DNA of 22,818 nucleotides from NCBI GenBank assembly GCA_023460715.1, contig JAEWPH010000003.1, positions 1-22,818 on the forward strand. Direction: 5' to 3'. This DNA comes from Pseudomonadota bacterium. GTDB lineage: Bacteria > Pseudomonadota > Gammaproteobacteria > Burkholderiales > Burkholderiaceae_C. Made by a program: the position numbers and the translations under genes. The notes under the pieces are model-generated. The model did not search any database. It worked only from the letters and a program-made list of their open reading frames with translations, and was not told the origin of the DNA. Positions within the stretch are counted from its first letter, which is position 1, and each line of letters begins with the position of its first letter. Below are positions 1,018 through 21,966 of the stretch, in pieces.

Positions 1018-1032
1018 AACGTGTTCAAAGGC

Positions 1033-1086
1033 TTTTCAGCCTCTGGCGCTTTGCCAGCAAGCGCAGTACGCTATCGATTCAATAGC
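1033..1086 (-). repeat. Repeat element copy A (about 50 bp, imperfect palindrome)
   Basis: Read on the minus strand this segment contains GATAGCGTACTGCGCTTG, then an AAGCGC arm and AGAGGCTGAAAA, closely matching the copy at 21867-21917. The core is an inverted repeat GCGCTT (1046-1051) and AAGCGC (1059-1064) with a 7-nt loop. It lies between the stop of the efflux gene and the convergent small membrane gene. I group it with copies B-E by eye; function is unknown. Confidence 0.65.
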
Positions 1087-1106
1087 ATCATCTGACGCAC
1101 AGAAAT

Positions 1107-1737: not shown

Positions 1738-2751
1738 ATGCAACCCATCAACTTCCGCACGCTGGACCTGAACCTGCTGCGCGTGTTCGACGAGATCATG
1801 GCCGAGCGCAACCTCACGCGCGCGGCCGAGAAGCTGTCGCTCACCCAGCCGGCCGTGAGCAACGCCCTGCGCCGCCTGCGCGAGGTGCTGGGCGACGACC
1901 TGGTGGTGCGCAGCGGCCAGGGCGTGCAGCCCACGCCCCGGGCGCTGGCGCTGTGGCCGTCGGTGCGCGGCGCATTGGCGCAATTGCAACAGTCGCTGGC
2001 GCCGGGCGCATTCGACCCGGCCTCGGCCAACTCCACCTTCGTGGTCGCCATGGCCGACGCCACGGGCGCCACGCTCATTCCACCGCTGGTGGAGATCATC
2101 GAGCGCGAGGCGCCCGGCGTGTCGCTGCGCGTGGTGCCGCTCACCACGCGCGACCCGCGCCAGCTGCTGGACGACGAGAGCGCCGACATGGCCGTGGGCT
2201 ACTTCCCTGCCGTGATGGCCGACCTGACGGCCCGCGCGCAGAGCGACAGTCTGGTGGCCTACGAGAGCGCCCGCCTGTACGACGGCGAATACGTCTGCGT
2301 GATGCGGCGCGAGCACCCGCTGGCGCAGGCGCCGCTCACGCTCGACCAATACTGCGCGGCGCGCCACCTGCTGGTGAGCTTCTCGGGCAAGCCCTATGGC
2401 TTCATCGACGAGGCGCTGACGGCGCTGGGCCGCGAGCGGCGCATCGTGCTCACCGTGAACCAGTTCTTCACCGCCGGGCGGGTGGTCGTCAACACCGACC
2501 TGCTGACCGTGCTGCCGCGCCACTTCGTCGGCGTGGCCAGCCTGGAGGGCGACCTGGCCTGGCGCCCGCTGCCCATGCCGCTGCCCACGGTGCACGTGGA
2601 CGCGCTCTGGCACCGCCGCCGCCGGCACGACCCGGCCCATCGCTGGCTCCAGGACGCCCTGGGCCGCGCCGCCCGGCACACGGCGCCGGCGGTGTCGGAA
2701 CGGGCGGATCTCATCAAAAATAATAGCTACTGGCGCTTGATAGACGGGTGA
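1738..2751 (+). CDS. LysR-family transcriptional regulator (NahR/NodD-like subgroup)
   Basis: A 337-residue regulator with an N-terminal winged HTH (about residues 6-65: LDLNLLRVFDEIMAERNLTRAAEK, then SLTQPAVSNALRRLRE) and a C-terminal periplasmic-binding-like effector domain. The recognition-helix style TQPAVSNALRRLR with a preceding DLNLLRVF is typical of the NahR/DntR/NodD group, which often senses aromatic compounds. I place the start at the ATG at 1738; an in-frame TTG at 1720 would add six residues but lies in a palindrome. The last residues, NNSYWRLIDG, are encoded by a repeat element rather than by family sequence, so the native stop has apparently been replaced. Its target is not evident: the closest downstream gene is a Bug-type binding protein over 400 bp away. 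Confidence 0.9.
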   Translation: MQPINFRTLDLNLLRVFDEIMAERNLTRAAEKLSLTQPAVSNALRRLREVLGDDLVVRSGQGVQPTPRALALWPSVRGALAQLQQSLAPGAFDPASANSTFVVAMADATGATLIPPLVEIIEREAPGVSLRVVPLTTRDPRQLLDDESADMAVGYFPAVMADLTARAQSDSLVAYESARLYDGEYVCVMRREHPLAQAPLTLDQYCAARHLLVSFSGKPYGFIDEALTALGRERRIVLTVNQFFTAGRVVVNTDLLTVLPRHFVGVASLEGDLAWRPLPMPLPTVHVDALWHRRRRHDPAHRWLQDALGRAARHTAPAVSERADLIKNNSYWRLIDG

Positions 2752-2755: not shown

Positions 2756-2800
2756 AACTTCTACGATCTTCAAACGCTTATAGATCAAGCGCTAACAGCT
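2725..2800 (+). terminator. Long stem formed by inverted repeat pair B/C after the LysR gene
   Basis: Bases 2725-2741 and 2784-2800 are complementary over 17 positions with two clear mismatches and one wobble pair, including a 9-bp perfect block GCGCTTGAT/ATCAAGCGC. The long loop holds a second inverted pair, TTGAA/TTCAA. The transcript could fold into a large hairpin starting inside the last codons of the LysR gene. No U tract follows, so it may act as an mRNA 3'-end stabiliser rather than an intrinsic terminator. Confidence 0.45.
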
Positions 2801-3176
2801 CTTCTATTCATAGCGCGATCGTGTTTTGTGGCTTCGCCGCCAGATCGGACGGCGGCATCGCCCCCGCGCAGCCCGCTGGGACAGCGGCGCGACAGCGCAA
2901 TGCGGGGCGGTCCTGGACCGTAGCCTCGGCCATCTGCGGCGGCTGCGCCCACCCTTTTCCGAGACAGCGCAGGATCGTCTTCCGACGCCCAGGGGCCGGC
3001 GAGGCAACGACGGCGCAGACAGGCCCGGCGTTACGCCCTGCGCGCGCAACGCCCCGGTGCGTGCGCCCCATCCATGCCCGAACGCTATACCTGCTGTGCC
3101 GATCTCCCGGTATCGCGCAGGTCCGTCCCCTGCCACAGTCGGCCGGAGGGCGGCGCTGGGCCGGCCGGGAGACACC
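2752..3176. other. Gene-free interval of 425 bp
   Basis: No coding sequence with credible family sequence or a ribosome site is seen here on either strand. The left 65 bp carry the inverted repeat pair. The remainder is GC-rich and open in several frames, but the translations are low-complexity Arg/Pro/Ala-rich, as expected for shadow frames. The promoter of the Bug gene at 3177 must lie in it; I do not see a convincing -35/-10 pair. Confidence 0.6.
2768..2815 (-). repeat. Repeat element copy C, inverted partner of copy B
   Basis: On the minus strand it reads AGAGCTGTTAGCGCTTGATC, then TATAAGCGTTTGAAG, matching the family core (AGCTG-T-AGCGCTTG, short loop, AAGCG). It faces copy B across about 15 bp, giving a BIME-like inverted pair downstream of the LysR gene. 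Confidence 0.6.
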
Positions 3177-4330: not shown

Positions 4331-5593
<1,263 letters not shown>

Positions 5594-16801: not shown

Positions 16802-18145
16802 ATGAAAACCATCGTTCTCGGCGCCGGCATCATCGGCATCTCCACCGCCTGGCACCTGCTGGAGCGCGGCCATGAGGTCGTCGTCGTCGACCGCCAGCCC
16901 GACGCCGCGCTGGAGACGAGCTTTGCCAACGCGGCACAGATCTCGGTGAGCTACTGCGAGCCCTGGGCCAACCGCGAGGCGCCGTGGAAGGCGCTGAAGT
17001 GGATGTTCGACAAGGAGGCGCCGCTGCTGTTTCGCCCGCAGCTCGACTGGGACCAGTGGCGCTGGGGCCTGAAGTTCCTGGCGCAGTGCAACGACGCGGC
17101 CTTCGAGCGCAACGTGCAGCAGATCGTGGCCCTGGGCGCCTACAGCCATGCGGCGCTCAAGGACGTGGTGCGCGCCACGGGCATCGACTACCACCGGCTG
17201 GAGCGCGGCATCGCGCACTTCTATTCCGACCAGCAGTCCTTCGACGCGGCCGGCCATGCCGTGGAGGTGATGCGCCAGTTCGGCGTGCAGCGCCGGCTGG
17301 TGAGCCGCGAGGAGCTGCTGCAGATCGAGCCGGCCTTCCGCGCCTACGGCGACCGCATCACCGGCGGCACCTACACCAGCACCGACGAGAGCGGCGACGC
17401 CCGCGTCTTCACCCAGGCCCTGGCCCGGCGCTGCGCCGAGCGTGGTGTGCAATTCCTCTACGGCCACGATGTGGTGCGCTTGAACCAAGTCGGTGGCGCT
17501 ATCGAATCCGTAGCTGTACGCGCCCGTGGATCAAGCGCTGCAGGCCAAAACAACCAAAACCTCAAGGCCGATGCGGTGGTGGTGGCCTGCGGCACCTACA
17601 GCGCGCCGCTGCTGCGCACGGTGGGCGTGGACCTGCCCATCTACCCCGGCAAGGGCTACAGCGCCACCTTCAAGCTGCTGAAGCCCGAGGCGGCGCCGAT
17701 GGTGTCGACCATCGACGACGCCAAGAAGCTGGCCATGAGCCGGCTCGGCGACACGCTGCGCGTGGCCGGCACCATCGAGCTGGGCGGCTACGACCTGTCG
17801 CTGGACAGCCCCGTGGCGCGCGCGCGCTGCCACCTGCTGTCGCGCCGCATCGAGGCCATCCTGCCCGGCGTGTGCGACACCCGCACGCCCGAGGAAGGCG
17901 GCGATCCGCAGTACTGGACGGGCCTGCGCCCGGCCACACCGACCAACATCCCGTTCATTGGCCGCACCAAAGTGAACAAGCTCTGGGTGAACGCCGGCCA
18001 CGGCACGCTGGGTTGGACGCACGGCGCGGGCTCGGGCAAGGCGATGGCCGAGCTCATCAGCGGCGAACGCCCGGCAATGGCCTTCGGCTTCCTGGGCATG
18101 GAGTCCGCCGCGCGCACGGCACCCGCTGCGGCGCTCGCGGCCTGA
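16802..18145 (+). CDS. dadA: D-amino-acid dehydrogenase (DadA family)
   Basis: A 447-residue membrane-associated FAD enzyme of the DadA/DAO family that oxidises D-amino acids to 2-oxo acids plus ammonia and passes electrons to the respiratory chain. The N-terminal dinucleotide fold is VLGAGIIGISTAWHLLERGHEVVVVDR (residues 5-31), then ETSFANAAQISVSYCEPWANREAPWKAL, TDESGDARVFTQALARR, VDLPIYPGKGYSATF, YWTGLRPATPTNIPFIGRT and GHGTLGWTHGAGSGKAMAEL (about 398-417), as in E. coli DadA. Around residues 233-250 the loop IESVAVRARGSSAAGQNNQNL is about 11 residues longer than in E. coli DadA and is encoded by repeat element copy D. The reading frame stays intact. No clear ribosome site precedes the ATG. 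Divergent from the ArgP-like gene. Confidence 0.93.
   Translation: MKTIVLGAGIIGISTAWHLLERGHEVVVVDRQPDAALETSFANAAQISVSYCEPWANREAPWKALKWMFDKEAPLLFRPQLDWDQWRWGLKFLAQCNDAAFERNVQQIVALGAYSHAALKDVVRATGIDYHRLERGIAHFYSDQQSFDAAGHAVEVMRQFGVQRRLVSREELLQIEPAFRAYGDRITGGTYTSTDESGDARVFTQALARRCAERGVQFLYGHDVVRLNQVGGAIESVAVRARGSSAAGQNNQNLKADAVVVACGTYSAPLLRTVGVDLPIYPGKGYSATFKLLKPEAAPMVSTIDDAKKLAMSRLGDTLRVAGTIELGGYDLSLDSPVARARCHLLSRRIEAILPGVCDTRTPEEGGDPQYWTGLRPATPTNIPFIGRTKVNKLWVNAGHGTLGWTHGAGSGKAMAELISGERPAMAFGFLGMESAARTAPAAALAA
17500..17550 (+). repeat. Repeat element copy D, in frame inside dadA
   Basis: The words GTAGCTGTACGCGC, GTGGATCAAGCGCTGCAGG and CCAAAA match the family order seen in other copies: AGCTgTaCGCGC arm, short spacer, AAGCGCT arm, AGGCC-AAAA tail. 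The 51-bp stretch corresponds to 17 codons and coincides with the extra loop in the dehydrogenase. Confidence 0.6.
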
Positions 18146-21319: not shown

Positions 21320-21898
21320 ATGCGCGCCATGCCTTCCCCGCACCATCTTTTCCTGACCACCTCCACCCGCGAGCCGGGCCATGTCGGCAACACCGAATGG
21401 CTGGCGCGCCAGGCCGCGGCCGCGCTGCCGGCCGATGGCGCCCAGACCTGGCTGCACCTGGCGCAGCTGGAGTTGCCGCCGTTCGTGGACCTGCGCCACA
21501 CGGCTGGCCAGTACCCCGCGCCCACGGGCGACATGAAGACGCTGCTGGACGCCACGCTGGCGGCGACCGACATCGTGTTCGTCGCGCCGGTCTACTGGTT
21601 CAGCATCCCCTCGCCGCTCAAGACCTATCTGGACCACTGGAGCGGCTGGATGCGCGTGCCCGGCCTGGGCTTCAAGGAGGCGATGGCGGCCAAGACGCTG
21701 CACCTCGTCACCACCAGCGGCGACCGCGCCAAGGCCCAGCCCATGGTCGATTCGGTCCAGCTGTGCGCGCAGTTCCTGGGCATGCGCTTCGCCGGCGCGC
21801 TCTGGGGCAAGGGCGGCCCGCCGGGCGCGGTGCAGGCCGACGCGGCCGCCGTGGAGGCTGCCGCGTCATTTTTGATAGCTTACTGCGCTCATCCATAA
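21320..21898 (+). CDS. Flavodoxin-fold NAD(P)H-dependent FMN oxidoreductase
   Basis: A 192-residue protein of the NADPH-dependent FMN reductase / flavodoxin-like fold. It begins HLFLTTSTREPGHVGNTEWLARQAA (phosphate-binding loop STREPGHVGNTE), then ATDIVFVAPVYWFSIPSPLKTYLDHWSGW, the typical isoalloxazine-binding P-x-YWFS-P-LK-x-x-D motif, and KTLHLVTTSGD. ATG at 21320 and at 21329 are both possible starts; neither has a strong ribosome site. The last residues, SFLIAYCAHP, derive from repeat element E and not from the family, so the protein has acquired a new C-terminus. Substrate is unknown. It diverges from chrA across 120 bp. Confidence 0.88.
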   Translation: MRAMPSPHHLFLTTSTREPGHVGNTEWLARQAAAALPADGAQTWLHLAQLELPPFVDLRHTAGQYPAPTGDMKTLLDATLAATDIVFVAPVYWFSIPSPLKTYLDHWSGWMRVPGLGFKEAMAAKTLHLVTTSGDRAKAQPMVDSVQLCAQFLGMRFAGALWGKGGPPGAVQADAAAVEAAASFLIAYCAHP

Positions 21899-21917
21899 AG
21901 CGCTGGGGGGCCTTTTC
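21867..21917 (+). repeat. Repeat element copy E, overlapping the oxidoreductase stop codon
   Basis: TTGATAGCTTACTGCGCTC (21872-21890), AAAGCGCTGGG and GGCCTTTT follow the order seen in other copies. The TAA at 21896-21898 lies in it, so the final codons of the upstream gene are read from the element. Confidence 0.65.
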
Positions 21918-21923
21918 GCTTCA

Positions 21924-21966
21924 AGAACGTAGGGGCGATCTCGCCAGGGGATCGTCCCTACGTTCT
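21924..21966. terminator. 17-bp stem hairpin between convergent genes
   Basis: Arms 21924-21940 and 21950-21966 (AGAACGTAGGGGCGATC with its complement) pair over 17 bp with a single G-U wobble and a 9-nt loop. It sits 25 bp after the oxidoreductase gene and 40 bp after the end of the leftward peptidase gene. With no T tract on either strand it is either a bidirectional terminator of unusual form or a separate repeat. Confidence 0.55.

Follow-up and report, generated by a model that had tools for sequence, protein, structure and literature searches.

Short repeats that lie in frame within protein-coding genes are best known from Rickettsia, together with the ERIC and YPAL fusions of enterobacteria (PMC2229807). 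In the part of that paper available to us, the RPE of Rickettsia are given as 105-146 bp long and described as Rickettsia-specific, and ERIC (127 bp) and YPAL (168 bp) are reported to be fused in frame, with some of the fusions forming signal peptides. Another family, BRE, has copies of 75-91 bp with a mean GC of 69.0% in Bordetella and was also counted in Comamonadaceae; the portion of PMC3110155 at hand describes some copies as "located entirely within coding sequences". Closest in sequence to the repeat described below are motif pairs listed in PMC5217627, whose accessible text gives GCTTAT(N)5AAGCG in Acidovorax ebreus TPSY, with 114 copies (107, or 94%, intergenic and 5 in genes) that are generally less than 50 bp from gene ends, and ATAGCT(N)22CAAAAG in Polaromonas naphthalenivorans CJ2, with 125 copies, 18 of them in genes. 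As presented there, the motifs are unnamed, are offered only as potential novel motifs, and are not connected with a reading frame, dadA or RAYT.

We analyzed a window, by which we mean the whole 22,818-nt stretch of DNA, that carries a repeat copy in frame within a dadA-like gene. We consider it likely that a dispersed, partly palindromic, REP-like element of about 60 bp, at home in Comamonadaceae, entered dadA ahead of the divergence of Acidovorax and its neighbours, where it would have replaced a surface hairpin, been tolerated as a linker and been kept recognisable, in a family probably spread by RAYT.

A dispersed repeat family with a copy in dadA

The sequence-only reading had grouped a 51-bp segment of dadA, 17500-17550, with four other repeat copies in the window. 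We built a profile HMM from 56 of the 60 copies retrieved outside dadA in the nearest genome, G001, whose dadA has 98% DNA identity to the window gene; the dadA copy and four ORF-internal copies were excluded, so that the profile held other copies only. The search space was 63 sequences, comprising 62 ortholog loci and the window. The grouping was confirmed, with ends that proved nearly exact, and the segment does lie in frame within an intact gene, as had been read (Table 1). None of 500 synonymous-codon shuffles of the window dadA attained the real score. Across the 63 sequences there were 29 matches at E < 0.01, and the same sequences reversed gave 0, with a best E of 1.7, which places the match far from chance. 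The copy supplies residues 233-250 of the protein (A-I-E-S-V-A-V-R-A-R-G-S-S-A-A-G-Q-N).

Table 1. Coordinates of the host gene and of the repeat copies in the window
Feature	Position	Strand	Details
dadA-like gene, FAD-dependent D-amino-acid dehydrogenase	16802..18145	+	447 aa; PF01266 DAO 226 bits; hosts in-frame repeat
Repeat copy inside dadA, in frame	17498..17550	+	HMM positions 3-55 of 71; 33.6 bits, E 8.1e-9
Repeat copy between OEP (outer-membrane efflux) gene 43-1017 and convergent small ORF 1169-1609	1023..1087	-	HMM 32.6 bits
Half copy in C-terminal tail of LysR-family gene (..LIKNNSYWRLIDG, stop at 2751)	2716..2743	+	HMM 16.1 bits
Partial copy, inverted relative to 2716-2743	2775..2815	-	HMM 22.0 bits
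Copy holding C-terminal codons and stop of flavodoxin/FMN-reductase-like gene 21329-21898 (..FLIAYCAHP, stop)	21868..21927	+	HMM 28.6 bits

The consensus of the 60 non-dadA G001 copies is ttGCTattnaattnATAGCTgcntGCGCTTgntgnatAAGCGCTggAGGCCnAtttggCttgaAatc, in which the first letters and the lower-case places are variable. It describes a full unit of about 60 bp, longer than the 51-bp segment in dadA, and the core spacing, of 36 bases, was identical in all 60 copies. Using the strict pattern TAGCT-N-GCGC-N-AGCGCT-NN-AGGCC, we counted 61 copies in G001 and 0 with the reversed pattern, and the strict pattern was present in 10 of the 40 genomes searched, G001 counted. Copies with at most one mismatch occurred in 35 of 49 ortholog genomes, ranging from 0 to 300 per genome, with controls at 0. 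Over 59 bases and 140 copies the mean GC was 0.487. The consensus starts with ATAGCT, a G stands at the tag place in a minority of the 140 copies, and the ATAG of the consensus differs from the GTAG or CGTC tetranucleotide of classical REPs.

An Rfam scan of the window returned no family above its threshold, generic repeat finding in the window did not isolate this one, and short pattern scans gave mostly background. When three hairpins were examined in the 140 copies, no covariation was detected and pairs were no commoner than with independent columns, four core G-C pairs being fixed by the search pattern itself. A structured-RNA reading gains no support from this. The window dadA copy has a degenerate palindrome arm (GCGCCC versus AAGCGC). 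Elsewhere, in a genome recorded as Acidovorax defluvii (L024; record UNVERIFIED_CONTAM), a repeat cluster was seen near a contig end (G056:C1:751-7542), with at least 10 copies within 7 kb, some of them identical over 36 bases.

A RAYT-like Y1 transposase was found in 58 of 60 family genomes (as a single match in 42 of the 58) and in 26 of 28 ortholog genomes. We examined 56 RAYT loci, that is, 30 of the 58 plus the 26 from ortholog genomes, and of 17 element matches of at least 10 bits in them, 16 were within 300 bp of the gene; these came from 12 different genomes, one genome appearing twice and three loci being matched on both strands. A neighbouring copy was present in 8 of 23 genomes (one of the eight weak, at 10.3 bits), against a rough expectation of 1.1-1.8 that uses the copy counts at up to one mismatch and assumes 950 genes per Mb. 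Most RAYT loci have no element copy, and RAYT is also present where copies are absent, as in the genomes of L012, L017 and L044. The enrichment beside RAYT suggests an element of the REP type, and the RAYT-like transposase carried by most of these genomes probably spread the family, which we offer as a lead rather than proof.

Repeat copies in dadA orthologs and in other genes

A genome scan yielded 61 dadA relatives, which together with the window and G001 gave 63 alignment rows; one locus with a broken frame (L064) was left out of codon and tree work. Fourteen of the 63 dadA loops matched the family at E < 0.01, and 20 of 62 (L064 excluded) did so at 10 bits or more. The window loop was ranked among those of L014 (44.5 bits), L059 (42.3), L011 (41.0), L008 (34.0) and L045 (31.3), and the loops of these five loci and of L039, L036 and L043 all fell at 27-45 bits. 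Among the high-scoring loops are those of Diaphorobacter nitroreducens (L011), of Paenacidovorax caeni (L059) and of a MAG grouping with Simplicispira (L043), and the dadA copy is common to several genera. In L053 (11.6 bits) and L054 (12.5 bits) only the left half matches. A similar loop, spelled in GC-rich codons and without a family match, is present in most Paracidovorax and in some Acidovorax. When 26 orthologs were put through the shuffle test, 21 had 0 of 500 shuffles at the real score; L013, L012, L010, L016 and L061 failed, three of them having no match at all. The locus with the broken frame is that of Paracidovorax valerianellae DSM 16619 (L064, 3001-4340), in which dadA is apparently frame-disrupted in the assembly and the match length is not a multiple of three; it still has a 12.3-bit repeat match.

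If a palindrome had simply dropped into the gene, a sharp boundary and close orthologs without the loop would be expected, and this is what the sequence-only reading had predicted. The prediction found no support in dadA. Across the 63 rows of the alignment we saw no obvious clean empty site, and the Acidovorax relatives carry either recognisable repeat DNA or the GC-rich version. Against the 41 residues 222-262 of the window, 29 order-level orthologs have an aligned stretch of 31-40 residues (36 in 17 of the 29). The sequence-only reading had estimated an excess of roughly 11 over the E. coli DadA loop. The net gain is thus about 5 residues relative to most of these orthologs, for an element that spans 18-20 codons. 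What holds of the original picture is that an intact live gene contains a true member of a dispersed, partly palindromic repeat family; a clean insertion is not supported, the gain being about 5 residues and not 17.

In a predicted DadA structure (mean pLDDT 80.2; the fold search confirms a DAO-type fold only), the left half of the element codes for a predicted strand, 233-241, and the right half for a turn, with pLDDT below 50 at residues 245-247, ahead of the next predicted strand at 252-255. The region of the first of these strands is aligned in orthologs that lack the repeat as well. Because the gain of about 5 residues is small beside 18-20 codons and the left part lies on a predicted strand, the repeat more likely replaced or overwrote an existing loop than was simply inserted, and the older surface hairpin would have been replaced more than extended. 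The element would have been tolerated in dadA because one of its frames, ..nTA GCT..GCG C..AGC GCT nnA GGC CAA AA.., has no invariant stop and spells a linker rich in Ala, Ser, Gly, Gln and Asn, which here would join the two predicted strands. Many copies of the family carry TGA in the variable middle of that frame.

Intragenic cases in G001 were chosen by eye from the longest ORF over each copy, read in one frame (nTA GCT). The linker of a UvrA-like protein of 1984 aa contains the element in G001 (42.9 bits), G005 (33.6) and G002 (31.6) and a decayed one in G015 (2.7 bits). There was no match in 13 of 17 congeners, whose linkers are shorter, by 18-31 residues for 12 of them in our own count. 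Here the element is polymorphic for presence and absence, with an empty site in 13 of 17 congeners. The N-terminus of CysN contains it in G001 (25.7 bits), G005 (26.9) and G002 (32.0), with a partial match of 10.8 bits in G014; the CysN N-termini of other congeners are similar but GC-richer, where their DNA was listed. An SCO1/SenC protein of G001 starts within a repeat copy, and an ABC-auxiliary lipoprotein of the same genome, for which the start codon is uncertain, may do so too. These four and dadA share one frame, in a search that was partly aimed at that frame and is not an unbiased count.

Other frames are used as well. Two window copies form C-terminal tails, those of the LysR gene and of the flavodoxin/FMN-reductase gene, and the LysR tail is read in a frame other than that of the dadA copy. 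Near position 5000 of locus L144 (G001), a copy read on the opposite strand seems, by eye, to supply a receptor-like protein with its signal peptide, in yet another frame. The half copy at the LysR end (window 2716-2751) was seen, among 19 rows, in the window and G001 (locus L352) only, and the element was absent near the LysR end in all 17 of the other orthologs read. At the flavodoxin/FMN-reductase end (21868-21898; loci L336-L348), four congeners (L337, L340, L341 and L343) end in FLIA and a stop, and the repeat match at these ends is missing or reaches 11.7 bits at most, which looks like decay.

Persistence of the repeat spelling in the dadA loop

The repeat DNA of the dadA loop can still be made out in several genera, even though the protein has no need of that spelling. 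GC3 exceeds 0.8 in 52 of the 62 orthologs, and in these no stretch of the gene is richer in A/T-ending codons than the loop, at 0.45 against a gene mean of 0.13 and 0.21 for the next best stretch. Third positions with an A/T majority made up 14 of 24 in the loop and 15 of 422 elsewhere (36 orthologs; Fisher p 9.5e-13); these 36 are the 39 of 62 that are gap-free over the loop, minus three, and rows with shorter loops, such as Paracidovorax, are absent from them. In 11 hand-chosen carriers, A/T-ending codons were kept at identical residues at 0.77 in the loop versus 0.23 elsewhere. Over all pairs of at most 85% identity, the loop again gave the maximum of the gene, 0.47 versus 0.23, with other stretches reaching 0.42 and 0.38. 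The third positions of the loop track conservation in the family (Spearman 0.48, n=21, p 0.026), and the first and second positions do not.

Loop score also rises with the number of copies in the genome, with a Spearman coefficient of 0.71 in 49 genomes, 0.69 in the 36 of the Acidovorax clade, and 0.70 in 48 genomes after removal of GC3. The trend is confounded by kinship; among the pairs listed, 2-4 are independent and supported, too few for a test. Exceptions were copy-rich genomes with a weak loop match (L031, 118 copies, 4.9 bits) or none (L016, 86 copies; L023, 48; L015 and L026, 30 each; L013, 27), and, in reverse, L053 with 0 copies and 11.6 bits. In six close pairs pooled, the loop differed at 16 of 450 bases and the rest of the gene at 218 of 7575; the loop was faster in two of the six and slightly slower in four. 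Between the window and G001, one of the two faster pairs, 5 of 75 loop bases differ and 17 of 1266 in the rest of the gene. In the pooled close pairs the loop changes no more slowly than the rest of the gene, which led us to reject strong purifying selection at the DNA level as the main explanation.

How the copy came to be there, and why it can still be read, may be explained in several ways. A chance resemblance between an A/T-rich codon stretch and the repeat would accommodate the five of 26 orthologs that fail the shuffle test, three of which lack a match, but it is hardly credible beside an E of 8e-9, a best reversed E of 1.7 and the 21 orthologs in which no shuffle reached the real score. 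We think it very improbable that a mobile palindrome entered dadA recently and by clean insertion. Such an event would suit a true family member that lies in frame, and captures confined to single lineages do occur elsewhere, in the LysR tail of the window and G001 and in the UvrA-like linker of 3 of 17 congeners plus the decayed fourth. The loops of several genera carry the element, however, and this shared presence refutes a recent date for dadA; the small net gain speaks against it as well, as does the failure to find any obvious clean empty site among the 63 rows. Alternatively, selection might act in dadA on the DNA of the element, for instance because a protein binds there or because the RNA is structured. 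The agreement between third-position conservation in the loop and the family profile points that way, but selection of this kind is unlikely given that the family shows no covariation, the window copy has a degenerate palindrome arm, the window and G001 already differ at 5 of 75 loop bases, and most Paracidovorax have no match left.

A more substantial contender, to which we give rather less than even weight, is a single ancient capture followed only by vertical descent, with uneven decay or amelioration of the codons. The scores across orthologs are graded, from 44 bits down to none, the loop evolves at ordinary speed in the pooled close pairs, and in some repeat-rich genomes the loop matches weakly (L031) or not at all (L016, L023). 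Paracidovorax loops, with similar protein and GC-rich codons, also fit. The sequence-only reading had named orthologs with the same loop in unrelated codons as evidence against an inserted element; such loops are what Paracidovorax has, and we read them as decay because five such genomes have 0 copies (G045, G050, G052, G060 and G061), P. wautersii (G058) being an exception with 30 copies yet no loop match. What decay by itself accounts for poorly is that A/T-ending codons are kept more in the loop (0.47, or 0.77 in the chosen carriers) than elsewhere (0.23), and that copy number predicts the loop score even after GC3 is removed. We slightly favour conversion or re-seeding from other genomic copies, over uneven decay and over selection on the DNA, as what would keep the dadA copy recognisable. 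A bolder and more tentative form of this idea is that a REP-type palindrome keeps rewriting coding genes: the dadA, cysN and uvrA-like copies might be repeatedly converted from or re-seeded by other copies in the genome, so that the spelling of the loop would follow the mobile family instead of the gene and decay once the family dies out in a lineage.

Comparison with described repeats

The family has been noticed before but not explained. The A. ebreus motif of PMC5217627, as given in the text available, matches the core GCGCTTAT-N5-AAGCGC of the present family. The Polaromonas motif from the same text has the same ATAGCT start, but its 22-base spacing misfits the G001 consensus and its identity is uncertain. 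GC (0.487 versus 69.0%) and length make identity with BRE unlikely, in a comparison made with the description in the accessible part of PMC3110155 only. Core 14-mers of the family were found in no paper, nor was any paper found that describes the repeat inside dadA, in a search that did not extend to subscription journals. Here a copy forms part of a protein, as an in-frame palindrome whose DNA spelling persists to an unusual degree.

REP sequences and their RAYT/TnpAREP partners, as portrayed in the parts of PMC8266576 and PMC3733652 that we could consult, resemble this family in being short, palindromic and high in copy number, with copies near a Y1 transposase gene. The present family differs in having ATAG instead of GTAG or CGTC, and its mobilisation by RAYT is only putative. 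None of the genera Acidovorax, Delftia, Polaromonas, Comamonas and Variovorax appears in the main text of PMC3733652, so far as available. With their 0 to 300 copies per genome, the relatives provide a natural series for asking how a mobile repeat gets into coding sequence, rewrites it and disappears from it again, and whether RAYT is the driver.

In the pages of PMC2229807 at our disposal, ERIC and YPAL are likewise small repeats in frame with other ORFs, to which the two lipoprotein starts of the present family may be compared; they belong to other sequence classes, and those pages do not describe them as recurring in the same enzyme from genus to genus. The comparison with Rickettsia RPE, drawn from the window alone at the outset, fits in kind, as other genes also have in-frame copies. 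Judged from the same pages, both families lie in frame inside conserved protein genes and also between genes. The present one differs from RPE in its length of about 60 bp, its occurrence in Betaproteobacteria, its enrichment beside RAYT, and a dadA copy that is shared across genera with little gain in length. Here a Betaproteobacterial REP-like element does in conserved enzymes what RPE does in Rickettsia, with its DNA still readable in several genera.
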